This document shows, piece by piece, positions 1 through 25,446 of a DNA stretch of 36,318 nt. Numbering within the stretch: position 1 is the stretch's first letter; each line of letters begins with the position of its first letter. Made by a program: the position numbers and the translations under genes. The notes beneath the pieces are model-generated. The model had not been told where the DNA came from. It did not search any database and saw only the letters and a list, made by a program, of their open reading frames with translations. This DNA comes from a virus: positions 1 to 36,318 of IMG/VR virus record IMGVR_UViG_3300034110_001262; one strand, written 5' to 3'.

Positions 1-2649
1 TCATTTGCTCGACACAATGGCATCACCGCCTGAAGCCGCTGAGGCGGCCTGCATTTCACAGAGCGTCCCTTTGAATTTAATAGGAGGCATATTTAAGCTA
101 GCTGGCCCGCTCATCTCATGATTAGCCCCCTTAAAGCTCACTTCCCCAGGGCAGTGAATTTCAATATTGCCGTCTTTTAGCCGGATATAGCCGCCGCCAG
201 AGGTGAGGAGCAGTTCATTACCTGCGGTGATTTCTACTTTTTCTTTGCAGGCGGTGATTTTAACGTTTTTATCGCCAGTGATTTCAATATCGTCATTTTG
301 GGCTTGCAGCTGGATTTTGCCTTTGGCTGCGATGATCTTCAGCGCGATTTTATCTTTTACCCCGGCCACAAATAGGCTGATGTGCTGGCCTACGTTGTGA
401 ATCCAGCGGCGGCCAGAGGTTTGGTTGGTGTCTCTTTGCGCGACTAAGTCTATGTTTGTGCCTGCGCTGAGGGTTTGGCTTTGCGGGCTGGTGATGGCCA
501 CGCCGTCCTCGCCATGCAGCAAGATAATTTTTTGCTGGCCGGATTGGTCTTTAGATTTGCTCTTGCCGTCTTTATCCGTGTTGCTGCCTGCTTCAAAGCT
601 TTTGCTGGCGTGTACGTGGTGATAAAGATGGCCAGTGCTGGCGGTGCTGCCCGCGCTGTTATCCGCCTCAACAGTTTTGCCTTCGTCGCCGGTTTCGATG
701 CTGTCAGCAAGCTGGTTGGTGGCCGTTTCGCCTAGGCTTTGGGCCAGTGAAAATGCTGATTCAAGCTGGCTTTGCGCGGGGCTGTGGTCTAGCTGCTTGC
801 CGCTAGCGCCACCTTTGGCTTCAGTACTGATGAGTAAGCCGCTGGCGCGAATGGCTCCTTGTTTGTCGCTGCGTAATTCAAAGCCTTCGCCGCGTGCTTC
901 GCCTTTGCCATCGGTGCGTGGATGGATTAAATAACCAAGGTTAAGCTGGGTTTTACCGTGCTCGCTCGATAATTTAGTGCGAACTTCATCCTTGGTATCA
1001 TCAAACAGCAGCTCGCCATATTGGCCGCCTTCATGCTCTTTGGTTTTGATGCCAGATAGGGTTTTATTGGTAGGCAGAGCGCCAGCACCGCTAAACGCGG
1101 GCACTGAATGGCTGCCGTTATAGGTAACACCTGTTACAATTGGGCGGTCGATATCGCCCTCTATAAAGCTAACAGTCACCTCCTGGCCCACCCTAGGGAT
1201 GAACTGATGCCCAAAGCCTGCACCTGCTGATGGATAGGCGACGCGAACCCAGCAGGATGACTTATCGTCTAGGTTTGCGCCAAACTCTGGGTGCTCCTGA
1301 GCACGCTGCCAATGTAGCTGAATTTTTATGCGGCCGAGCTCATCCGTATGCACTTCTGATCCGGCGGGGCCAACTACCGTGGCGGTTTGTAAGCCTAGGC
1401 TGGTGGGCTTGGTAAATTCTTGCTCCCCCAGATGGCTAAGCACAGGCTGGCCGCGTCTTTGCGCGGTAAAGTCCGCTTGGTAAGGCGCGTTATCTTTGGC
1501 GGACGTGGCAAGCAGGCTAGGTGCAACTAAGCCAAGTTGCTGAGTTAAATCTGCTGGAAAATTATTGTTTGCGGTGAATTTAAGCTCGGTGATGGCGAAC
1601 TCTCGCTGCTCAAGCGAATCAAAATCATGGGCAGGGTGATCTTCTAAGCGGAACCATTGCCCCGCTTGTAAGCTGCGCAATGTGCCAGAGCCGGTAAATG
1701 ATTTCTTTTGCGCATCCATTGCGTCTTGGCGCAGCTTGGCATCGTTGTTGAACTGGTCTACATCGCTGGCGTAGTAATGCGTTTGCGGATCGTAATATTC
1801 TAGGCTGGCCTGAATTTGCTGCCCGCCATCTCCCTGATCGATCGCGCTTTCACTTGAGCTGTGGCTGGTATTGCTGGCTTTGTAATCGTAGCTGGCAAGG
1901 GAAACTGAGCTGCTGCCAATTTGCCGCTGGGTATTCCATTGGGTAAGAGAATCACTTTCCTCCGTTGCTGACGATCTATGAAAGCGAGCGATAGGCTCTA
2001 AAGCTTCGGGGATGGAGAATACATCATCAAACACCACCAGCTGCACTTGCGGGGAATCACCCGCCAAATGCTCAAATCGCCAAGTCAAACCACTTTCTTT
2101 CATTAATCTGCATAAAAACGCAAAATCGTCTTCGCGATACTGTAAGCAGTATGAGCGCGGTGGATATTCGCCTGATAACTTGAAATCCAGCGTTTGCACG
2201 GAGGCAAACACAGGATTCTTGGCCTGATGCTCCGCCAGTACCTGTTTCACAATATCGACTGGGGATAAATCCTGAAAAACGCGTGAAGTGCGGCGGTGTC
2301 TGAGCAAGGCAAAAGGCGGCTCTACGGTGAGGGAATATTGAGCGAAGCCCCCGTCAGAACCTAATAGCTGCGCCTGACTCACCACCCCGCAACGCTCAAT
2401 CGCATCGCCATTGGCGTTTGCGATAGACAATACCACCGGCAAGCCTAATAGCGATTTAAGTTCTAAATTGCCACTGGAGGATAAGCACTCAACCTGATAG
2501 CGATATGCTTGGCAAATCCCCTCGCTACCTGTTACGCGCTGGGGTAAGAGCTGCTGGCCCCATGCCGCACCGTCGCCTAGCTGAAGAGAAATAAGGCGCT
2601 GATCTTGATTAAAAGCAGCGGCGAAGGAAGCAAGCAGATCAAAGGTCAT
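1..2649 (-). CDS. vgrG: Type VI secretion tip protein VgrG
   Basis: The 882-residue protein is a complete VgrG, the trimeric spike at the tip of the type VI secretion tube. The N-terminal gp27-like part covers about residues 15-400. A gp5-like OB fold lies near 430-510, with the typical stretches DELGRIKIQ, CWVRVA and FIPRVGQEV and the GDIDRPIV signature. A DUF2345-type beta-helix follows at about 690-860, rich in short repeats such as KVEITAG and NIEIHCPG. There is no obvious C-terminal effector domain, so it probably carries effectors or a PAAR protein non-covalently. The start is the first ATG; no good Shine-Dalgarno sequence precedes it. It is divergent from the phage late genes, and the phage has its own spike gene elsewhere, so this is either host flanking DNA or phage cargo. 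The family call is firm; membership of the element is not. Confidence 0.93.
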   Translation of the reverse strand: MTFDLLASFAAAFNQDQRLISLQLGDGAAWGQQLLPQRVTGSEGICQAYRYQVECLSSSGNLELKSLLGLPVVLSIANANGDAIERCGVVSQAQLLGSDGGFAQYSLTVEPPFALLRHRRTSRVFQDLSPVDIVKQVLAEHQAKNPVFASVQTLDFKLSGEYPPRSYCLQYREDDFAFLCRLMKESGLTWRFEHLAGDSPQVQLVVFDDVFSIPEALEPIARFHRSSATEESDSLTQWNTQRQIGSSSVSLASYDYKASNTSHSSSESAIDQGDGGQQIQASLEYYDPQTHYYASDVDQFNNDAKLRQDAMDAQKKSFTGSGTLRSLQAGQWFRLEDHPAHDFDSLEQREFAITELKFTANNNFPADLTQQLGLVAPSLLATSAKDNAPYQADFTAQRRGQPVLSHLGEQEFTKPTSLGLQTATVVGPAGSEVHTDELGRIKIQLHWQRAQEHPEFGANLDDKSSCWVRVAYPSAGAGFGHQFIPRVGQEVTVSFIEGDIDRPIVTGVTYNGSHSVPAFSGAGALPTNKTLSGIKTKEHEGGQYGELLFDDTKDEVRTKLSSEHGKTQLNLGYLIHPRTDGKGEARGEGFELRSDKQGAIRASGLLISTEAKGGASGKQLDHSPAQSQLESAFSLAQSLGETATNQLADSIETGDEGKTVEADNSAGSTASTGHLYHHVHASKSFEAGSNTDKDGKSKSKDQSGQQKIILLHGEDGVAITSPQSQTLSAGTNIDLVAQRDTNQTSGRRWIHNVGQHISLFVAGVKDKIALKIIAAKGKIQLQAQNDDIEITGDKNVKITACKEKVEITAGNELLLTSGGGYIRLKDGNIEIHCPGEVSFKGANHEMSGPASLNMPPIKFKGTLCEMQAASAASGGDAIVSSK

Positions 2650-6597: not shown

Positions 6598-6639
6598 AGG
6601 AAAACCCAAGCAAAACGACCAGAGCGCGACACATAAAAT
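6598..6639 (+). promoter_or_regulatory. Late promoter 2 (GGAAAAC / -10 type)
   Basis: AGGAAAAC is followed after 28 bases by TAAAAT at 6634-6639, the best -10 match of the seven sites. The predicted start point is near 6646, giving a leader of about 18 bases that contains the GGAGAG ribosome-binding site of the darB-like gene. Confidence 0.7.
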
Positions 6640-13724: not shown

Positions 13725-13755
13725 AAAAACCGAACCGCTCCGTTCGGTTTTTTTT
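13725..13755 (+). terminator. Rho-independent terminator after the darB-like unit
   Basis: Stem AAAAACCGAAC / GTTCGGTTTTT with a six-base loop CGCTCC runs into eight consecutive T residues. It ends unit 2 just before late promoter 3. Confidence 0.92.
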
Positions 13756-13776: not shown

Positions 13777-13884
13777 AAACAGGAAAACGACGCGTTTTGC
13801 CCTTTTTGTGCGAGCTGAGAATGAGCACTTACCGCGCTGCTATTAGCGCAAGTGCTTTATTCGCATAAACAGAGGGGCGAGTTG
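13777..13884 (+). repeat. Duplicated leader, copy 1 (upstream of capsid gene)
   Basis: About 108 bases are roughly 85% identical, by eye, to the segment at 18045-18153. The shared part includes the late-promoter motif, the -10 region, an inverted repeat GCACTT-acc-GCGC ... GCGC-AAGTGC at 13825-13855 and the AGGGGCGA ribosome-binding region. The leaders of two different operons therefore descend from one ancestral segment. Confidence 0.85.
13781..13822 (+). promoter_or_regulatory. Late promoter 3 (GGAAAAC / -10 type)
   Basis: AGGAAAAC is followed after 28 bases by GAGAAT at 13817-13822. The predicted start point is near 13829, leaving a leader of about 56 bases before the capsid ATG. The GGAAAACG half is also inverted by CGTTTT three bases later at this site. 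Confidence 0.65.
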
Positions 13885-15555
13885 ATGAGTAGTAACCGAA
13901 TTCAGGATTTTGCAAAGATTGGCACCGTAGAGGTTGCAAACTTTGTGGATGCTTTAAAAGAAAACGCGATGCCACAGGGCACATTTGATTCAATATCAGC
14001 TTGTGGCTTTATTGGCGATGTGAGCCATGCAACCTCTGGTGTGAAAATTCCTGAGAATTTGCAGGTCGTGTTTGATGAAGCTGGCCCAGAAAATACCGCA
14101 AGAATTTCCCGTGCCATCTTGGATGGCGTGAGCGTCTACGAACAGCAGCATGGCTGCACCGCCCCGGCTGACGTTATTGAGCAAGCGCTACATCTTGCCT
14201 ATGCAACCACGGACAAGGCCCGCCGCGCTTTTAGCCTAGATTCGGCCACCTCAAGTCATCATGACACCCACGCACTTCAGCCAAATCGCGCCATTACCGC
14301 TATTTTGTCGGCGATGGGCGAAGCGATTCCATTCGCGCATTATTTGCCAGCAGACATTGGCTCCAATAAAGCGGTGCTGGGCATCATGAGCCACAATGCG
14401 GGCAATACATTTGGCGGCTATAAGCAAGAAGGCTTGATGGATGGCGCGCTGTCAGGTGAGTCGTATATCTCGTCCAGCCGCACTTGCCAATGCAAGATTG
14501 TTGAATCTGCGATGACCGGCCAGCTCACCACGCTTCAAGGTGAAGACGAAGAAGTATGCGACAAAAGCGGTGATCCTATCCCGTTATTGCGTGGTCGATC
14601 TATTGTCTATGTGAATGGTATTCCTGTCGCGGCAGAAGTTTCACAAGCGGGCTCGGGCCTATCCCCTGTGTCAGGTACGGCGCGTATCTCTGGTTCCTCA
14701 TATGTCATTGGCGGCACGATTAATACGGATACCGGTGAAATTGCGCTGACATCAAATCCTGCGTTGCCAGAATTAACGCCATGCATTGTGGAAGGCTTTA
14801 TTGACTATGAGCGAGCATATAGCCTCGTTCCGTCAATCTCCACTTCGGTGACCATGTATGACCTCTTTGCAAAACCGTGGCGTGTAAACACACATCAATC
14901 CATTGATGCCCGCACCCAAATTTCTAATGAATTGGGCCTTGATCCATTCAGCGAGAGTGTCATTGCTATCCAAGCTCAGTTTGCGAATGAGCGTCATTAC
15001 GAAGTGCTTAAAAAAGCCAAGCGCATTTCGATGGGCAATCAAACGACCTTTGATTTCTCATGGGGCAAGCAAGGCCTAGCGAAAACTCGTGACCAAGTTT
15101 GGCAAGACTTCGCTACGCCGCTTGGCTACCTATCGCAGCAAATGGCGGTAGATACAATGGATCATGGCATTACGCACCTGTATGTAGGGCGCAATGTTGC
15201 AGCTCAGATGCTTAGTCTTCCAACGGCTCTATTTAGCCCCTCGGGCACACGTGCCAAGCCATTTATCTTCCGTTTAGGTCGCTTGTTTGGTCTGTATGAA
15301 GTTTATTACTCACCCAAAGTCGTTGAAGAAGTGGACTCCAAATCGGCACAAATTCTGTGTATTGGTCAGGCCACCAACGTGACTCGTAACCCGTTTGTAC
15401 TTGGCGATGCGGTTCCACCAACCGTTATCCCTTTGGCTGTTGGCGGCGATCTGCGAACTGGCGCTGGCTTCTATGCCCGCAATTTCACGGCAGTAAATCC
15501 GCATCCGCAATCTGCCGCAGGCTGCGCAATGATTACCGTGACGAATTTGGTCTAA
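13885..15555 (+). CDS. Major capsid protein (P1 gp23-like)
   Basis: The 556-residue protein is the best candidate for the shell subunit. It stands directly before the tail sheath gene, as gp23 and gp22 are paired in P1. Its C-terminal region is typical of myovirus capsid proteins: FRLGRLFGLYEVYYSPK near residues 460-476, then NPFVLGD and ARNFTAVNPHP before a short hydrophobic end. A central insert of about residues 235-310 with Gly/Ser-rich beta character (SPVSGTARISGSS) could be a surface domain. ATG at 13885 was chosen over an in-frame GTG at 13852 because AGGGGCGAG lies just upstream. No prohead protease gene is adjacent. Confidence is moderate to high because the call relies on family resemblance and gene order. 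Confidence 0.75.
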   Translation: MSSNRIQDFAKIGTVEVANFVDALKENAMPQGTFDSISACGFIGDVSHATSGVKIPENLQVVFDEAGPENTARISRAILDGVSVYEQQHGCTAPADVIEQALHLAYATTDKARRAFSLDSATSSHHDTHALQPNRAITAILSAMGEAIPFAHYLPADIGSNKAVLGIMSHNAGNTFGGYKQEGLMDGALSGESYISSSRTCQCKIVESAMTGQLTTLQGEDEEVCDKSGDPIPLLRGRSIVYVNGIPVAAEVSQAGSGLSPVSGTARISGSSYVIGGTINTDTGEIALTSNPALPELTPCIVEGFIDYERAYSLVPSISTSVTMYDLFAKPWRVNTHQSIDARTQISNELGLDPFSESVIAIQAQFANERHYEVLKKAKRISMGNQTTFDFSWGKQGLAKTRDQVWQDFATPLGYLSQQMAVDTMDHGITHLYVGRNVAAQMLSLPTALFSPSGTRAKPFIFRLGRLFGLYEVYYSPKVVEEVDSKSAQILCIGQATNVTRNPFVLGDAVPPTVIPLAVGGDLRTGAGFYARNFTAVNPHPQSAAGCAMITVTNLV

Positions 15556-15580
15556 TAAACGCATCAATAAGGGCGCACAA

Positions 15581-16306
15581 ATGAAGCAAGAATTAACATT
15601 TGGCGCTCCTTCCCTGACAGGGAAGGACGCTGAAACAGAAATTAATCGATTATTTTCTGACTCAAAATTTCCTTTGGAAATGGTGGTTGAGAATTTCGCA
15701 CCACGCGATATGGTATTTCCTGAAGTCCCTAATTTGTTTTTGAAAAATGTATCTTCAAAAACGGGCACCAAGCTCAAAGTTTCGTTTGAAGGTTTAGACC
15801 AACTTCACCGATTTGGCTCCAGTGTTGAGCAAATTTCAGAGCTTAATCATTACGATGTTGCGATGCTTATTGCTGAAGTGGTTGATACAGCGCCTCCTGC
15901 GCGGCTATCGGTTAAATCAATGGTCGTTACAGAGGCCAGCGGCGTGACCGAGGGTGAGTCGTTTCATGTCACTGTGACGCTAGATAGTGCGCCCGTAGAT
16001 GAAAATGGCGAAATGAGCATTCTGATGGCTAATAATGCAGGCGTAGTGATGAGTGCGCTTACATTTGATAGCTTCATCACTTTGGGTGCCAATAGCGACA
16101 CCACGGTGATTCCTGTTGGTGTCAGCTCTTTTGTCGTTACCGTTCCAACCGTTGATGATGAAGCGCTGACAGCTGATCGTACCGCCAAGCTAACGATGGG
16201 TGACAAGTCGGTTGATTTACTGATTCTTGAGAAAGAGCCGGACAGCTCAAAAAGCATGCCTAGCAAGAAAGTCACCAAGCCTGTATTGAATGAAGAGGGC
16301 AAATAA
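15581..16306 (+). CDS. Probable head decoration or accessory protein with Calx-beta/Ig-like domain
   Basis: The 241-residue protein lies between the capsid and sheath genes. The first 105 residues are a phage-specific domain I do not recognise. Residues about 106-222 have the pattern of a Calx-beta or Ig-like fold: VTEGESFHVTVTLDSAP, later VIPVGVSSFVVTV and a TVDDE turn that could bind calcium. The last 20 residues are a lysine-rich tail. Ig-like domains on phage heads often bind sugars on cell surfaces or stabilise the shell, so a displayed role is plausible. An AAGGGCG site precedes the ATG, and the stop codon overlaps the next start (TAATG), which indicates translational coupling with the sheath gene. 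Confidence 0.6.
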   Translation: MKQELTFGAPSLTGKDAETEINRLFSDSKFPLEMVVENFAPRDMVFPEVPNLFLKNVSSKTGTKLKVSFEGLDQLHRFGSSVEQISELNHYDVAMLIAEVVDTAPPARLSVKSMVVTEASGVTEGESFHVTVTLDSAPVDENGEMSILMANNAGVVMSALTFDSFITLGANSDTTVIPVGVSSFVVTVPTVDDEALTADRTAKLTMGDKSVDLLILEKEPDSSKSMPSKKVTKPVLNEEGK

Positions 16307-17964
16307 TGGCCTCTTTTACTCGGCAAATTGGCAGTGAGTCTGGCGTACAGCTCAATCCGCTCAACGATAACTCTGAAATCAGTGCTTCAGACAACCAGGA
16401 TCAGGTTTTCGCGATTTTGATGCGGGCCACGCGTGGGCGTATCGATAAACCATTTCTGGTCAATCGTGGCAATGTCTATCGTAAGTTGGGCAACGGCGAG
16501 CAAATGCGTGTTTCCCAGCTGAATGAAGCATGGGTGCATGTGGTTGAAGCGCTGGATTCTGGCGCGTATAGCGCAGTTGTTCAGCGGCTTATTACCTCTG
16601 CATATGAAATTAAGTATGCGACGGCAAAATATAAACCCGATGTTACAGAGTTAGGGTCGAAGAAAACCGCTTCTAAATCGGTTGTTTTCTCTGTGGATAA
16701 AGATGCCCCTAACGGTGATTTTATTGTGTCCGTTCGCCATCTGGAATGCCATAACGACGGGATTAAGATTGAAATTCATGCGGATGAAAAGAAAATTGGC
16801 GGTGTGGCTGTTGCTAATGATCGCGTCACTTTACGTCTCTTTGATTCTGCTGATGTGCGTCTTTATGAATTTACGGGGTCGTTAGATCCAGCGGCAAAGG
16901 ATGATTATGGCAATTCTGCGTATTTGCCTGATGTTGTTTCATTGCAAACCGACACGGTTGAAATTGAAACAGGGGTGAAATCAGTTGATCCGCTGTCAGT
17001 ATTTTATGGCTACGACGATAACTCTAAGCCTAATACCGTTAAATCTGAGGTTCTGGTGTGTTTTACCGAAGGGGGTATGGCTTATACGACTAAGGACTAT
17101 TTAACGGGGCGTGAAAACCTTCAATATACCCCGTTGAATTATAGCTATATCGCGGCGGGTGGTACAAAAGCGCCTGCTTTGCTTAGTCAGTTAGCAACCC
17201 TGGCATTTGAAACCAATCGGCAACTGAAGTTTGATGTGCCTAGTGAGCTAGACGAAGAGGCAGCTATTGCCTTTGTTGAGCAGCTTAACTTCGGTGCTAG
17301 CCAAACGGCTCATTTGTTGCACGCTTTCTGGTCGCCTCTAAAGTCAAATGATCCAACCGGCATTAACCCGAGTGGTTTTTTTGGCGTGGCCACGCTGAAT
17401 ATTGCGATGGCGTGTGGTCGCAATGCGCGAGTGGATGATAAAGGCTTTGCGCCAAAGAACTACCCAATTGCTGGCCGAGAATGGCCGATTCGACGCACTC
17501 GGATTATTCAAACTCGGACCCCTCGCGGCCCAGAATTAAACGCTTTGGCCCGAGCAAAAATCAATCCGGTCTTGTATGAAACATACACCGGCGGGGGGCG
17601 GTACGTGTTTCTTGATTCCCTTACAAGCGCAATGGTTGAGTCTAGCTTGAAAAAACTAATCTCAGTCGCGGATATGTCAACCAGCGTTGATGACACCGTA
17701 ACGCGTGTTGCAAAAGATAATTTGCAGCTGCCCATGGCGGTTTCAATTAAGCGCACGCGTGATTTTCTTGCTACTTATTTTGAAGGGGCTCAGGCAGCCG
17801 GTTGGATTGTTCCAAGTGATGACCCTGCGATGGGCGGTGCGGCATGGTCGTTTGATGTTCGCCCAGACAGCGTTCGTCCTTATGACCGCATGCAAGTTTC
17901 GTACTCCCTACGCTATGACGGTACAAATCGACAAACCTTTGTGACGCATACGCTTTCTCGATAA
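16306..17964 (+). CDS. Contractile tail sheath protein (P1 gp22-like)
   Basis: The 552-residue protein resembles myovirus sheath subunits in length, position and C-terminal sequence. The end reads as the conserved sheath domain: ARAKINPVLYETYTGGGRY with a FLDSLTSA strand, then about 100 residues later GAAWSFDVRPDSVRPYDRM and a final beta strand suited to the sheath handshake. The N-terminal third (residues 25-60) has the insertion-and-plug region VFAILMRATRGRIDKPFLV. It is the last gene of unit 3, followed 28 bases later by a terminator. Contraction of this protein around the tube drives DNA injection. Confidence 0.8.
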   Translation: MASFTRQIGSESGVQLNPLNDNSEISASDNQDQVFAILMRATRGRIDKPFLVNRGNVYRKLGNGEQMRVSQLNEAWVHVVEALDSGAYSAVVQRLITSAYEIKYATAKYKPDVTELGSKKTASKSVVFSVDKDAPNGDFIVSVRHLECHNDGIKIEIHADEKKIGGVAVANDRVTLRLFDSADVRLYEFTGSLDPAAKDDYGNSAYLPDVVSLQTDTVEIETGVKSVDPLSVFYGYDDNSKPNTVKSEVLVCFTEGGMAYTTKDYLTGRENLQYTPLNYSYIAAGGTKAPALLSQLATLAFETNRQLKFDVPSELDEEAAIAFVEQLNFGASQTAHLLHAFWSPLKSNDPTGINPSGFFGVATLNIAMACGRNARVDDKGFAPKNYPIAGREWPIRRTRIIQTRTPRGPELNALARAKINPVLYETYTGGGRYVFLDSLTSAMVESSLKKLISVADMSTSVDDTVTRVAKDNLQLPMAVSIKRTRDFLATYFEGAQAAGWIVPSDDPAMGGAAWSFDVRPDSVRPYDRMQVSYSLRYDGTNRQTFVTHTLSR

Positions 17965-17992
17965 GGCGGGCTTTGCACGGAGTGATTTAACT

Positions 17993-18023
17993 AAAAAACC
18001 AGGCTCTCATGTCTGGTTTTTTT
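17993..18023 (+). terminator. Rho-independent terminator after the sheath gene
   Basis: Stem AACCAGGC / GTCTGGTT with one G-T pair and loop TCTCAT is followed by a run of seven Ts. It separates units 3 and 4. Confidence 0.88.
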
Positions 18024-18044
18024 CGTTTTACCCGTCGATTTTTG

Positions 18045-18153
18045 AAACAGGAAAACGACGAGATTTCCCCCTTTTTTGCGAACTGAAAATAAGCACTTAC
18101 CGCGCCGTTATTGGCGCAAGTGTTTTATTCGCACAAATAAAGGGGCGAAGTGA
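18045..18153 (+). repeat. Duplicated leader, copy 2 (upstream of the EF-hand protein gene)
   Basis: This is the second copy of the capsid-gene leader. The inverted repeat is kept: outer arms are GCACTT/AAGTGT with one wobble, and the inner arm becomes GCGCC/GGCGC. The differences sit mostly where pairing is preserved, which hints that the structure matters. The ribosome site AAGGGGCGAAG is also conserved. Confidence 0.85.
18049..18090 (+). promoter_or_regulatory. Late promoter 4 (GGAAAAC / -10 type)
   Basis: AGGAAAAC is followed after 28 bases by GAAAAT at 18085-18090. The predicted start point is near 18097, with a leader of about 57 bases, the same layout as promoter 3. Confidence 0.65.
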
Positions 18154-18846
18154 ATGAGTGGCACAATCGATTTAAGAGCCTTAGTACGGGAAGCAATGGC
18201 ACGGTCAACATTGGATTCTACAGCCGAAGATAAACCGTCCAAGCGTGAGCGTCAGCTCAAGGGGGCGGCAGCCCATACTGATAATGAAAATAAGCTTAAA
18301 GCCCTTGGCGTACTCCATCAATGGGCAGAAAACGAAGACCTTGATGATGGCGAAACAAACGCAGATCGCTTAATGGCCTTGTTTATTGGGATTGCCGACG
18401 AAAATAAAGACGGTGAAATCTCAGAGGATGAGCAAGATATTGTTGATGTTGTACTGAACGCGGCATGGGACTACTTGGCCCAAAAGGGCGTTGATGACGA
18501 CGACTTGGATTTGCTCCTTAACGAGTGGGATGACGATGCCGGTGATCGTATTCGCGATTTGCTGGCTGCGTCATTGCCTGATGGCGAGGCTGCAGCTGAT
18601 GAAATTGATGATTTTGTTTTTGGTGATGACGATCAAGAACCTGTGTTTGATGCGGTTTATAAAAAGAAAATGGTGATTCGTGGTGGCAAAAAGGTTCGTA
18701 TTAATAAACGTGTTTCTGGGAATGTTCGTTTGTCTGCTAAGCAGAAAGTAGGGCTACGCAAGGCACGGATTAAAAGCCACTCTGCGGGGGCTCAGATGAA
18801 GCGCAAGAAGTCTTTGCGCATGCGTAGCAAGATGAATTTGAAGTAA
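18154..18846 (+). CDS. Acidic EF-hand protein with basic tail, probable head core/scaffold-like protein
   Basis: The 230-residue protein has three parts. The N-terminal 65 residues are helical and mixed in charge. The middle is strongly acidic and contains a textbook EF-hand loop at residues 82-93, DENKDGEISEDE, with all calcium ligand positions filled. A second acidic region with many Asp residues follows. The last 60 residues are very basic and end in KRKKSLRMRSKMNLK, like the tails of internal head or prohead core proteins in myoviruses. Charge separation of this kind fits scaffolding inside the shell. Its leader is a copy of the capsid leader, which suggests co-expression with capsid. Calcium binding is predicted from the motif; the core role is inference. 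Confidence 0.6.
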   Translation: MSGTIDLRALVREAMARSTLDSTAEDKPSKRERQLKGAAAHTDNENKLKALGVLHQWAENEDLDDGETNADRLMALFIGIADENKDGEISEDEQDIVDVVLNAAWDYLAQKGVDDDDLDLLLNEWDDDAGDRIRDLLAASLPDGEAAADEIDDFVFGDDDQEPVFDAVYKKKMVIRGGKKVRINKRVSGNVRLSAKQKVGLRKARIKSHSAGAQMKRKKSLRMRSKMNLK

Positions 18847-23081: not shown

Positions 23082-23558
23082 ATGAAAACAACATTATTTA
23101 ATTTCGACGACTTATCCGCAAAAAGCAAAGAAACCAAAGCGGTGATGAAGATTTTTTCAAAAGCTGGATCGCCGGTGGTTTCTCAAGAAGTCAGCCCATC
23201 GACAAGGCGCACGGCAGGGGTGAGCTTTAAAGAAGTGTTCTTCACCTTTGGAGACTCGCAAACAGCGGTGTTTAGGATCAAGCAAACGGGGGATATTTTC
23301 CAAGTTTTAGTGAATGGAAAGGTCGTCCCTATCAGAAACCAAGAAGACCAAGAAAGAGCAGTCCTTGAAATTATTAGTTTTATGGACTCAGGCCGGTCTA
23401 GGTTTCAGAAGAAGCTGGCGGCAGTTGCCGTAAAACTGCCGCCATCGATTAGAACCGCAGCTCCAAAAATGGAGACTTTGCTAATTCAACGGCGCGATAC
23501 CTTGAAAGAAATGATCGAAGAGATTAAGTCTGAAATCTTAGCCGTCCAAGCTGCCTAA
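23082..23558 (+). CDS. DarA N-terminal-domain-like protein
   Basis: The 158-residue protein resembles the N-terminal domain of P1 DarA, which guides Dar proteins into the head. Matching features are a short start NFDDLSAK, the strand GVSFKEVFFTFGDSQTAVFRIKQTGDIFQV and the end FQKKLAAVAVKLPPS. Here it stands alone rather than heading a longer polyvalent protein. It closes unit 5 and its 3' end overlaps that of the convergent antirepressor gene by 21 bases. AGGAAAAAAG precedes the ATG as a ribosome site; this is not one of the late-promoter motifs. The call rests on pattern memory, so a profile search would be valuable. Confidence 0.55.
   Translation: MKTTLFNFDDLSAKSKETKAVMKIFSKAGSPVVSQEVSPSTRRTAGVSFKEVFFTFGDSQTAVFRIKQTGDIFQVLVNGKVVPIRNQEDQERAVLEIISFMDSGRSRFQKKLAAVAVKLPPSIRTAAPKMETLLIQRRDTLKEMIEEIKSEILAVQAA
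23417..23443. repeat. Perfect 10-base inverted repeat within the DarA-N-like gene
   Basis: GGCGGCAGTT and AACTGCCGCC are separated by seven bases. It lies in coding sequence (LAAVAVKLPPS region). It shares the GGCGGCAGT core with the C4-like RNA encoded about 1 kb away on the other strand; whether this matters is unknown. Confidence 0.5.
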
Positions 23559-24317
23559 TTTGTTTTTTTCAAGGCACACATTCTCAAGACGTTTCAAAAA
23601 AGATATAAGCGCTCCAGACTCTAAAAAATGGTGCTCATACTTCTTCAGGAGGGGTGATTCTAGCGATTTGAGCGCGGGCGCAATTTCTTTCCATGCGGAG
23701 CGCATGAAGCGAGCGTGAGAAATAAGCGACGGCAAATTGGTTGTTTCATCGCTAGTCAGCGTCAAAGGGCTTTTTTCTGCGGGGAGCCACTCACCATCTA
23801 GCACCATGCGGTGTACGTATTCCACTACTTGCGGGATTTGCTCGGCGGCCAGCTCCTCGATATGGGCGACGTTGAAGCGCTGGTGAATCATGGAGTAGGC
23901 CTCTGGATACATGAGGCGCTTTTTACCAACGAGTAGATTAACGGCGTCACGAATCGGGGTGCGGGCATCGGCGGTGGTCTTGCTAGCCGGTGCGGTGACG
24001 GCATCCAGAATATCGAGAACCCATTTACGGAAGGCTTTGGCTAGGGCTGTGCGGGCAAACATGGCTATCAGGTGAGCGCCGCGAAGGGAGAAGATGCGTG
24101 ATTCTCTGGTTAATTCACCGCCATTTTGCGGGACACTCAAATTGAGGGTCTGGCTCATCGCACTAGTAAATTCATCACTATTGCGATCATAAATCTGGGT
24201 AACAGCATCTGCTTTTTTGTAGCCAAGCGCACGAGCAATGTCAGCAGCTTTAAGCCAAGTATTGCCGCTGCGATCTACAACGTCGAATTCAGTATTTTGG
24301 AATGTAAGTGTGGTCAT
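23538..24317 (-). CDS. ant: Bro-N antirepressor (P1 Ant/P22 Ant-type)
   Basis: The 259-residue protein has a Bro-N domain at about residues 1-105: TWLKAADIARALGY, IYDRNSDEF, RIFSLRGAHLIAMFA and KAFRKWVLDILDAV. The C-terminal half, from RDAVNLLVGKKRLMYPEAYSMIH to EYVHRMVLDGEWLP, matches the P22 antirepressor C-terminal domain. Such proteins inactivate a phage repressor and trigger lytic growth. ATG at 24317 gives the usual Bro-N beginning (MTTLTFQNTEF); a longer reading of 25 residues upstream looks like leader sequence. A C4-type RNA lies about 50 bases upstream on the same transcript, as in the P1 immI region. GTGGTCA at 24344-24350 (read on this strand) can pair with TGACCAC at the start codon. 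Confidence 0.85.
   Translation of the reverse strand: MTTLTFQNTEFDVVDRSGNTWLKAADIARALGYKKADAVTQIYDRNSDEFTSAMSQTLNLSVPQNGGELTRESRIFSLRGAHLIAMFARTALAKAFRKWVLDILDAVTAPASKTTADARTPIRDAVNLLVGKKRLMYPEAYSMIHQRFNVAHIEELAAEQIPQVVEYVHRMVLDGEWLPAEKSPLTLTSDETTNLPSLISHARFMRSAWKEIAPALKSLESPLLKKYEHHFLESGALISFLKRLENVCLEKNKLGSLDG
23952..24199. repeat. Bro-N duplication, intact copy
   Basis: This stretch of the antirepressor gene recurs, diverged, at 24592-24839 in the same orientation. The first 150 bases from the left are around 90% identical by eye. The middle, coding for the variable region after TSAM, differs strongly. Confidence 0.85.
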
Positions 24318-24366
24318 GGTGTCGTGTTCCGTTTCTATCGGATTGACCACTACAAAATGAGGTGGC

Positions 24367-24440
24367 CGGGAGGTTAGAAACTGTACACGCACAGCGGGCA
24401 GTTTTTCCCTTGCGGGTCTTGCATGACTGCCGCCCTCCCG
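24367..24440 (-). ncRNA. c4: C4-like antisense RNA upstream of the antirepressor
   Basis: The minus strand can form a closed structure of nested stems: closing stem CGGGAGG/CCTCCCG, inner stem GGCAGT/ACTGCC holding a CCC-gcaa-GGG apical hairpin, and a side hairpin CTGT-gcgtgt-ACAG. This architecture and position match the C4 RNA of P1/P7 and relatives. That RNA is processed from the ant transcript and blocks ant translation. The order promoter, C4, then ant is the same as in P1 immI. The pairing target in the ant leader was not worked out. Confidence 0.75.
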
Positions 24441-24455
24441 ACCATAGACAGAACC

Positions 24456-24553: not shown

Positions 24554-24583
24554 AGCATACTATTAGCTTATGTTTTTCGTCAA
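24554..24583 (-). promoter_or_regulatory. Sigma-70-type promoter for the C4/antirepressor transcript
   Basis: On the minus strand TTGACG (24583-24578) and TATGCT (24559-24554) are 18 bases apart. The predicted start near 24547 lies about 105 bases before the C4-like RNA. A plus-strand reading, TTGACC-17-TATGTT from 24546 to 24574, overlaps it; no gene follows on that strand, so it may be chance. Confidence 0.6.
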
Positions 24584-24873
24584 CCGACATTAATCGGGGT
24601 GCGGGCATCGGCGGTGGTCTTGCTGGCCGGTGTGGTAACGGCATCCAGAATATCCAGCACCCATTTGCGGAAGGCTTTGGCTAAGGCTGTACGGGCAAAC
24701 ATGGCAATCAGGTGGGCGCCACGAAGAGAGAAGATGCGGACTTCTTTTTCTGAGCCTCCGTTACCGAAACCCTTGACCGTCAAATTGACGGTCAAGGTCA
24801 TAGCACTTGTAAACTCATCAGGATTGCGGTCATAGATGCGGCTTACCGAGTTATTGAGGTCGGGCAGTTGCAT
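24580..24873 (-). pseudogene. Truncated second Bro-N antirepressor
   Basis: The 97-codon remnant encodes the middle of a Bro-N domain (SRIYDRNPDEFTSAM, RIFSLRGAHLIAMFA, KAFRKWVLDILDAV). It lacks the N-terminal strand-helix (the TWLKAADIARALGY part) and all of the C-terminal domain. It ends two residues after DARTPI, where homology to the intact copy also stops. Its upstream end runs into the 3' end of the antitoxin gene, and the putative ATG overlaps that gene. A recombination or insertion event probably removed the front. It might still be expressed and interfere with the intact protein, but decay is more likely. Confidence 0.75.
24592..24839. repeat. Bro-N duplication, degenerate copy
   Basis: This is the partner of 23952-24199. 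It contains a perfect 11-base inverted repeat, CCTTGACCGTC-aaatt-GACGGTCAAGG, at 24771-24797 that the intact copy lacks. Confidence 0.85.
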
Positions 24874-25144
24874 GTAATTGCAAGCCCAGTGCTTGCGTCA
24901 CCTTGAGAATGGTTGCAAAGCTGGGGTTGCCTTCACTAGAGAGGGCTTTGTATAAACTCTCGCGAGATAGCCCTGTATCTTTTGCTAGCTGGCTCATGCT
25001 GCGTGCACGGGCAATTACGCCTAATGCATGAGCGATCAGTTGCGGGTCGTTTTCTTCCAGGCATGCTTCAAAATAGAGCGCTCGATCTTCTTCTGTTTTG
25101 AGGTAGTCTGCAGAATCCCATTTACTTAAAGTAATGTCGTTCAT
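24851..25144 (-). CDS. Addiction-module antitoxin with HTH domain (HigA-like)
   Basis: The 97-residue protein is a probable antidote of the COG3636 type. The first half reads DYLKTEEDRALYFEACLEENDPQLIAHALGVIARAR. The second half is an HTH domain: MSQLAKDTGLSRESLYKALSSEGNPSFATILKVTQALGLQL at about residues 50-90. It follows its toxin with a one-base start/stop overlap, the usual toxin-first order of this family. It would neutralise the toxin and repress the shared promoter. The pair stabilises plasmids and prophages; here it sits in the antirepressor island. Confidence 0.88.
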   Translation of the reverse strand: MNDITLSKWDSADYLKTEEDRALYFEACLEENDPQLIAHALGVIARARSMSQLAKDTGLSRESLYKALSSEGNPSFATILKVTQALGLQLHATARPQ

Positions 25145-25446
25145 TATTCGCTTTCCTTAATATGTCTCGCCATCTCGTGTGCGGATTGAATGTCTTTGCT
25201 TTGGCTCGATTTGTCGCCGCCAGCTAATAGAATCACAATCTCCAGTCCACGCTGCATAAAATACACACGATAGCCTGGCCCGTAATGAATCCGTAATTCT
25301 GAAACACCTTCACCAACCGAATCACAGTCGCCAAAGTTGCCAAGTTCAACGCGGTCGATTCGTGCCTGTATTTTAAATTTGCCTAGCTTGTCGCGTAGAT
25401 TTATAAGCCATTGATCAAAAGTGGCGGTTTTTTGAATGGTTTTCAT
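25144..25446 (-). CDS. Addiction-module killer protein (RelE/HigB-like toxin)
   Basis: The 100-residue protein is of the COG3657 killer type. Diagnostic parts are FDQWLINLRDKLGKFKIQARIDRVELGNFGD near the front, VSELRIHYGPGYRVYFMQRG in the middle and LLAGGDKSSQSKDIQSAHEMA near the end, which keeps the basic and polar positions usual in these mRNA interferases. No Shine-Dalgarno sequence precedes the ATG. The predicted promoter places the mRNA start at or next to the first codon, so it is probably translated leaderless. Both partners look intact. Confidence 0.88.
   Translation of the reverse strand: MKTIQKTATFDQWLINLRDKLGKFKIQARIDRVELGNFGDCDSVGEGVSELRIHYGPGYRVYFMQRGLEIVILLAGGDKSSQSKDIQSAHEMARHIKESE

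Follow-up and report, generated by a model that had tools for sequence, protein, structure and literature searches.

In the transposase mRNAs of IS10 and IS50/Tn5, read-through RNA folds so as to hide the Shine-Dalgarno sequence (SD), and the element's own promoter gives an RNA in which the SD is free. These elements differ from the phage leaders described here in being transposons whose pairing arm comes from the terminal region, and no homology is implied. In phage T4, the SD and/or start codon of e, soc, 49 and the intron gene I-TevI is hidden in a helix (PMC3014915, PMC2988022). For e and I-TevI, the same sources describe long early transcripts that form the helix and a late promoter whose RNA lacks the 5′ portion; they put the effect on synthesis at 100-fold for gene e. 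Phage P1 has 11 Lpa-dependent late promoters with a conserved 9-bp inverted repeat (PMC10695390), and the P1 record annotates −22 and −10 regions for late promoters.

The leader analyzed here resembles this T4 arrangement: long upstream transcripts would hide the SD and, if the predicted start is right, late transcripts would lack the 5′ part. It differs in its promoter. T4 late promoters use a phage sigma factor and TATAAATA, whereas the present family has a GGAAAA box and a NANAAT −10. It also differs from T4 in its setting: the gene concerned encodes the major capsid protein, and the design is found again, in diverged sequence, across a P1-like family. As in P1, late promoters lie before homologous genes, and the P1 leaders LPsit and LPpac also pair with the SD region. 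However, the P1 Lpa repeat is located near −22, whereas the box of the present family is about 45 nt before the start, without a conserved −22 element. Searches of an open-access library whose coverage does not extend to the main P1 genome paper found no account of an SD-hiding read-through structure in P1-like phages, so the support for novelty is weak.

The duplicated leader and its genes

The DNA analyzed is the 36,318-nt virus record IMGVR_UViG_3300034110_001262, hereafter the window. By its encoded proteins (DarB-like, Ulx-like, capsid, tail sheath, PmgG-like and portal) it comes from a P1-like phage. The gene order capsid-sheath-gp21-pmgG and the homologous proteins are common to the window and P1, which identifies a P1-like structural module. 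The capsid protein is 51.7% identical to that of Xanthomonas phage Rb1 and 25% identical to P1 gp23. The EF-hand protein aligns with P1 gp21 at 32.7% over 196 amino acids (E 1e-12), and an EF-hand-like loop is found in 49 of 59 relatives examined.

Several other features of the window are recorded here as separate observations. A VgrG-like baseplate hub protein with DUF2345 is encoded at the window's end on the opposite strand (1-2649, minus strand). An Rfam match to sRNA-Xcc1 (24356-24443, minus strand; 72.7 bits, gathering threshold 53) sits where a Bro-N anti-repressor gene (23538-24392) has its 5′ end, a position reminiscent of that of C4 RNA before ant in P1; sRNA-Xcc1 also comes up in integron papers. 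A short anti-repressor copy (24580-24873) is located upstream of the full-length gene, and this part of the window holds a second duplication (23945-24105 and 24585-24745; 161 nt, 89% identical) plus another 72-nt pair. A probable toxin-antitoxin pair (24851-25446, minus strand) adjoins the anti-repressor genes; its toxin is phrog_3445, with a weak Gp49-like match, and its antidote is of the HI1420 type.

The leaders of the capsid and EF-hand genes form a gapless 109-nt direct repeat with 17 differences (84% identity), in good agreement with the first-pass annotation, which had put the likeness at about 108 bases and 85%. The inverted repeat that it described, with a variant in the second copy, is present in both leaders with the arms as given (Table 1). 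Upstream of it lies a pyrimidine-rich stretch complementary to the SD region, the anti-SD arm, and the pairing thus reaches beyond the inner repeat. An intrinsic terminator precedes each copy, a feature that, like the outer pairing, is absent from the first-pass annotation; the two terminators align weakly with one another, and we do not claim that they were copied along with the leader.

Table 1. Features of the two leaders, their genes and a further late promoter in the window
Feature	Position	Strand	Remarks
Major capsid gene, P1 gp23-like	13885..15555	+	ATG 13885
EF-hand protein gene, P1 gp21 homologue (phrog_1053)	18154..18846	+	ATG 18154
Leader copy 1, before major capsid gene	13777..13885	+	84% identical to copy 2
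Leader copy 2, before EF-hand gene	18045..18153	+	84% identical to copy 1
Intrinsic terminator 5′ of copy 1, then T run	13732..13750	+	
Intrinsic terminator 5′ of copy 2	17993..18022	+	
GGAAAA box, copy 1, probable activator site of late promoter	13782..13787	+	fixed spacing to −10
GGAAAA box, copy 2	18050..18055	+	
Anti-SD arm, copy 1	13797..13814	+	entirely upstream of −10; predicted duplex with SD region −22.9 kcal/mol; beats all 58 foreign segments
Anti-SD arm, copy 2	18065..18082	+	predicted duplex −18.7 kcal/mol; 1 of 58 foreign segments equal or stronger
−10 element GAGAAT, copy 1	13817..13822	+	
−10 element GAAAAT, copy 2	18085..18090	+	
Predicted transcription start, copy 1	13829 (about ±2)	+	placed by a 6-nt spacer after −10
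Predicted transcription start, copy 2	about 18097	+	
Inner inverted repeat, copy 1	13825..13855	+	GCACTT acc GCGCT..AGCGC AAGTGC
Inner inverted repeat, copy 2	18093..18123	+	GCACTT acc GCGCC..GGCGC AAGTGT
SD GAGGGG, capsid gene	13872..13877	+	predicted unpaired value rises from 0.04 (read-through RNA) to 0.68 (predicted late RNA)
SD AAGGGG, EF-hand gene	18140..18145	+	predicted unpaired value rises from 0.01 (read-through RNA) to 0.51 (predicted late RNA)
Additional GGAAAA/−10 (TAAAAT) promoter before DarB-like gene	6599..6639	+	

Both copies fold more stably as RNA than their shuffles (copy 1, −39.8 kcal/mol, z −3.7; copy 2, −36.7, z −4.5). When the 35 predicted pairs of copy 1 are followed into copy 2, 25 are the same, six are kept by one-sided and one by two-sided changes, and three are broken. 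The change from T-A to C-G at 13838/13845 is truly two-sided; that from G-C to G-U at 13825/13855 is one-sided. If the 17 changes are placed at random, an average of 7.0 pairs are broken (P = 0.013), and the earlier claim that changes in the second copy preserve pairing therefore holds, modestly. It could be argued that the leaders are alike through duplication alone and that the hairpin is functionless, given that a single two-sided compensatory change separates the copies. The deficit of broken pairs argues against this, as does native-specific pairing in diverged relatives (below), and we consider this explanation highly improbable.

A probable late-promoter motif among relatives

Relatives were collected by capsid-protein searches of IMG/VR and prokaryote genomes, which gave 34, 80 and 31 loci, some on the same contigs. 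With named records added, 147 loci were used, of which 142 have a capsid match, and these yielded 93 distinct leaders. All relatives are distant, the top capsid identity among the matches listed being 65%. Start codons were picked by a simple rule and some are possibly wrong; leaders were discarded if the guessed start was over 60 nt away from the expected one. Once copy 2 was added, 91 leaders were available, which fall into 66 clusters at 80% identity. GGAAA occurs 70-170 nt upstream of the start codon in 61 of the 66, and the five without it (L020, L021, L024, L132 and L040, which is P1) were omitted. Fold tests cover 59 clusters, namely both window copies and 57 others, with L016 and L116 left out for deviant spacing. 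Because the leader clusters are mutually related, the counts that follow do not represent independent events. The exact inverted-repeat pattern of the leader had no match in viral_contigs. A 15-mer from the leader's start gave 82 stretches, and our guess is that chance recurrence is possible in so large a collection.

In all but three of the 61 clusters (58), the GGAAA(A) box and the NANAAT −10 are 34 or 35 nt apart, where 26-44 nt was allowed and a −10-like hexamer was defined by A at the second and T at the sixth position. Since the GGAAA letters were themselves a selection criterion, independent evidence comes only from the flanks and the spacing. The flanks are conserved, with AAA before the box and C-rich sequence after it. 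Among the 59 clusters, no other strongly conserved column and no −35 was seen between box and −10, and near −22 no column besides the box and −10 is strongly conserved. A sigma-70 consensus scan called no −35/−10 promoter at either window leader. The promoter has neither a TTGACA-like −35 at 16-18 nt from the −10, as a sigma-70 promoter would, nor the 9-bp inverted repeat at about −22 beside the −10 that marks the P1 Lpa type. A GGAAAA box with a NANAAT −10 and no −35 is probably an activator-dependent late promoter, with the activator itself presumed.

Across 65 loci (725 kb), the box and −10 pair also precedes 17 ORFs other than the capsid gene, and copy 2 is one of these cases; as a control, four other spacings summed give three such pairs ahead of ORFs. 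In 12 of 58 clusters an intrinsic terminator is found no more than 95 nt ahead of the box, compared with 0.4 expected from shuffles.

Predicted pairing between the upstream arm and the SD region

The −10 is positioned by the fixed box spacing, and the predicted start then falls within the 5′ arm of the inner inverted repeat, inside GCACTT, which would exclude that arm from the late RNA. The complete inverted repeat would thus not be a late-mRNA structure. The first-pass annotation, which had suggested a 5′ mRNA structure, had itself named a start excluding the 5′ arm as evidence to the contrary, and this is what the start predicted from the −10 alone implies for the repeat taken as a whole. 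What stands of that suggestion is that the leader structure is maintained and probably bears on translation. The outer arm, lying wholly ahead of the −10, would be absent from any mRNA started there.

We take the leader to be a late-promoter cassette with a built-in translational shield of the T4 gene e type, a reading to which we assign a probability of roughly 0.6. A phage-directed promoter (GGAAAA box, 34-35 nt, NANAAT −10) would start the capsid mRNA within the 5′ arm of a long imperfect hairpin. Read-through RNA from upstream would hold the whole hairpin, in which the anti-SD stretch pairs with the SD, and would be translated poorly; promoter-started RNA without the 5′ arm would leave the SD free. 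We infer both this start site and the effect on translation. A short stem-loop at or near the 5′ end of the late RNA may also protect the mRNA. Terminator and shield would form two layers of insulation, such that the capsid protein, and here also the gp21 homologue, would be made only from its own late promoter.

Complementarity specific to the native leader is, like the repeat, the promoter spacing and the usual short gap at the second site, established computationally. Sequence upstream of the predicted start pairs with its own leader at −9.38 kcal/mol, as opposed to −4.37 ± 0.24 with swapped leaders (59 clusters), and the own leader is stronger than all of about 10 foreign partners in 29 of the 59 (5.4 expected). 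The excess peaks around the SD, at about positions −12 to −5. In a restricted test, the 20 nt upstream of the −10 were paired with the last 25 nt plus the start codon, giving −9.41 kcal/mol for native, −6.96 for foreign and −7.57 for shuffled prefixes (0 of 20000 permutations); the difference persists without the window copies (−9.01 vs −6.80). As in T4 gene e, the SD region has its complement in sequence 5′ of the predicted late start, and the match is strong in both window copies. Of the 59 clusters, 10 have the native pairing among the top 5% of partners, 15 among the top 10% and 30 among the top 25%, and by the restricted test several clusters show none (e.g., L102, L072, L068, L128). The predicted SD shielding is marked in both window copies and in some of the other clusters, and weak or absent in about half.

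Energies and SD accessibilities are predicted values throughout. Over all clusters, the SD is predicted to be unpaired at 0.341 in read-through RNA and 0.480 in late RNA, compared with 0.420 ± 0.014 when foreign 5′ parts are attached. Access is greater in late than in read-through RNA in 41 of 59 clusters, with no gain in 18. Read-through leaders fold more stably than their shuffled versions: their z averages −2.28, and 31 of 59 fall below −2. For control sequence from further upstream the average is −0.67, with 7 of 58 below −2. Native pairing is favored at promoters other than that of the major capsid protein as well (P = 0.001), for the 12 that were examined out of the 17; the five omitted are copy 2 and L031, L100, L108 (at 3912) and L113 (at 4002), the last four judged by eye to be one homologous stretch with a similar site upstream of the capsid gene. 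At the DarB-like gene of the window, pairing of the SD with sequence upstream of its start is not significant. The operon upstream of the capsid gene seems to have a late promoter of the same type (6599), which counts against the shield by making its read-through target less obvious. As a separate observation, a further late gene, located some 3.4 kb ahead of capsid (L104 at 1480, L108 at 1480, L113 at 1585) has a −10 that, with the preceding bases, pairs with the SD region; at L113 1585 the pairing is 10 bp, ACCTGAAAAT/ATTTTCAGGT.

Pairing of this kind can also be seen in P1. Its LPsit/pmgC leader (NC_005856, our L244, about 46600) has a 10-bp perfect stem, CTCGTAGAAT/ATTCTACGAG, which includes the −10 and extends as far as the pmgC SD. 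When the 11 P1 late promoters were put through a pairing test, 0 of 200 shuffles were as strong for LPsit/pmgC and 7 of 200 for LPpac. Only these two of 11 pass; for gene 23, 136 of 200 shuffles are as strong. Gene 23 (CTCTTCC with GGAAGAG) and lydA (CCTCCT with AGGAGG) both fail, their pairing just 3′ of the −10 having been noted by eye and, for gene 23, being visible in the fold too. Gene 23 fails because its anti-SD CTCTTCC is just downstream of the −10. By eye, the SD is in a stem with the 5′ arm in 7 of 14 P1-like leaders, among them that of an Acinetobacter oleivorans plasmid (L156), with a 14-bp stem.

A different role would follow if the hairpin were what is left in the late mRNA, a 5′-terminal stem-loop guarding the abundant capsid message from 5′-end-dependent decay, with the upstream pairing a by-product. 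In 43 of 55 leaders, no more than 3 nt separate the predicted start from the first base that pairs (28.8 expected, p = 6.6e-5), and late leaders are more stable than shuffles (mean z −1.72, 23 of 55 below −2). However, this would leave unexplained why the SD region is complementary to sequence upstream of the −10, and the stem remaining in the window is only about 6 bp. We regard it as unlikely by itself, although 5′-end protection and SD shielding are compatible roles. Of the two roles offered earlier for the repeat, stability thus stays alive through the short 5′-terminal hairpin of the predicted late RNA, and the outer arm points to blocking of read-through translation.

The dyad could instead work as DNA, either as a cruciform or as a protein site in promoter control. 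The −10 is located within the dyad, and most stem pairs are Watson-Crick; among the mismatches, G-T does not outnumber A-C (8 vs 15; 77 vs 81). Because wobble pairs are not enriched, selection on the RNA of this strand and DNA symmetry are not separable by this measure. But the excess pairing is greatest around the SD, and stem sequences vary widely among clusters, unlike those of a protein site. The protein-site reading, also raised in the first-pass annotation, was set aside for this divergence, and control through DNA is on the whole improbable. Slightly more doubtful still is autoregulation through binding of capsid or another phage protein to the leader RNA. AGTCGG..CCGGC-like and TTTGAAC letters are conserved in one subgroup of 14 leaders, as such a site might be, but these are absent from the window and many other clusters, and the P1 stem is different. 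RNAalifold on 14 related leaders recovered only the inner hairpin and a small SD stem, with two-sided changes in two of nine pairs, and so lends little support to the outer stem within that subgroup.

Origin of the second copy and implications

The sheath gene and the gp21 homologue are separated by 70 nt or less in 51 of 57 clusters having both genes (a corrected estimate), and by 193 nt in the window. In P1, 9 nt separates genes 22 and 21, with no leader between. Seven other clusters have GGAAAA somewhere in this gap; among the promoters listed, where five hits without an ORF were only counted, none of the seven was seen as a promoter ahead of an ORF in the gap. No other cluster was found with this leader at the sheath-gp21 site. 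Phage L136 does have a terminator and a box/−10 promoter after the sheath gene, but before an ORF of 126 aa that gave no gp21 match. Since the two genes are usually close, the second copy is apparently a derived feature of the window lineage: on sequence comparison, the 109-nt cassette appears to have been copied between the sheath gene and the gp21 homologue, with the direction and time of copying being what we infer. The proposal that a shared leader sets capsid and core-like proteins to a fixed ratio is unsupported, as the second gene normally follows the sheath gene so closely and, among the clusters examined, was found with the leader only in the window. A fixed capsid-to-gp21 ratio is unnecessary for explaining the second copy.

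Tentatively, and with rather less than even confidence, we propose that P1-like phages of Proteobacteria possess an undescribed class of GGAAAA/NANAAT late promoter, often fused to a hairpin that silences read-through, and copyable as a unit to other genes, as in the window phage. If the shield is real, a mechanism of T4 lysis and homing genes would also guard the major capsid gene of P1-like phages. Many of these phages persist as plasmids, where capsid read-through could be harmful. It would also supply a clear late-promoter motif, open to testing, in a group of phages whose regulation is sparsely annotated, single out the P1 leaders LPsit and LPpac and, by eye, those of gene 23 and lydA, and offer an example of a regulatory cassette apparently copied inside an operon.
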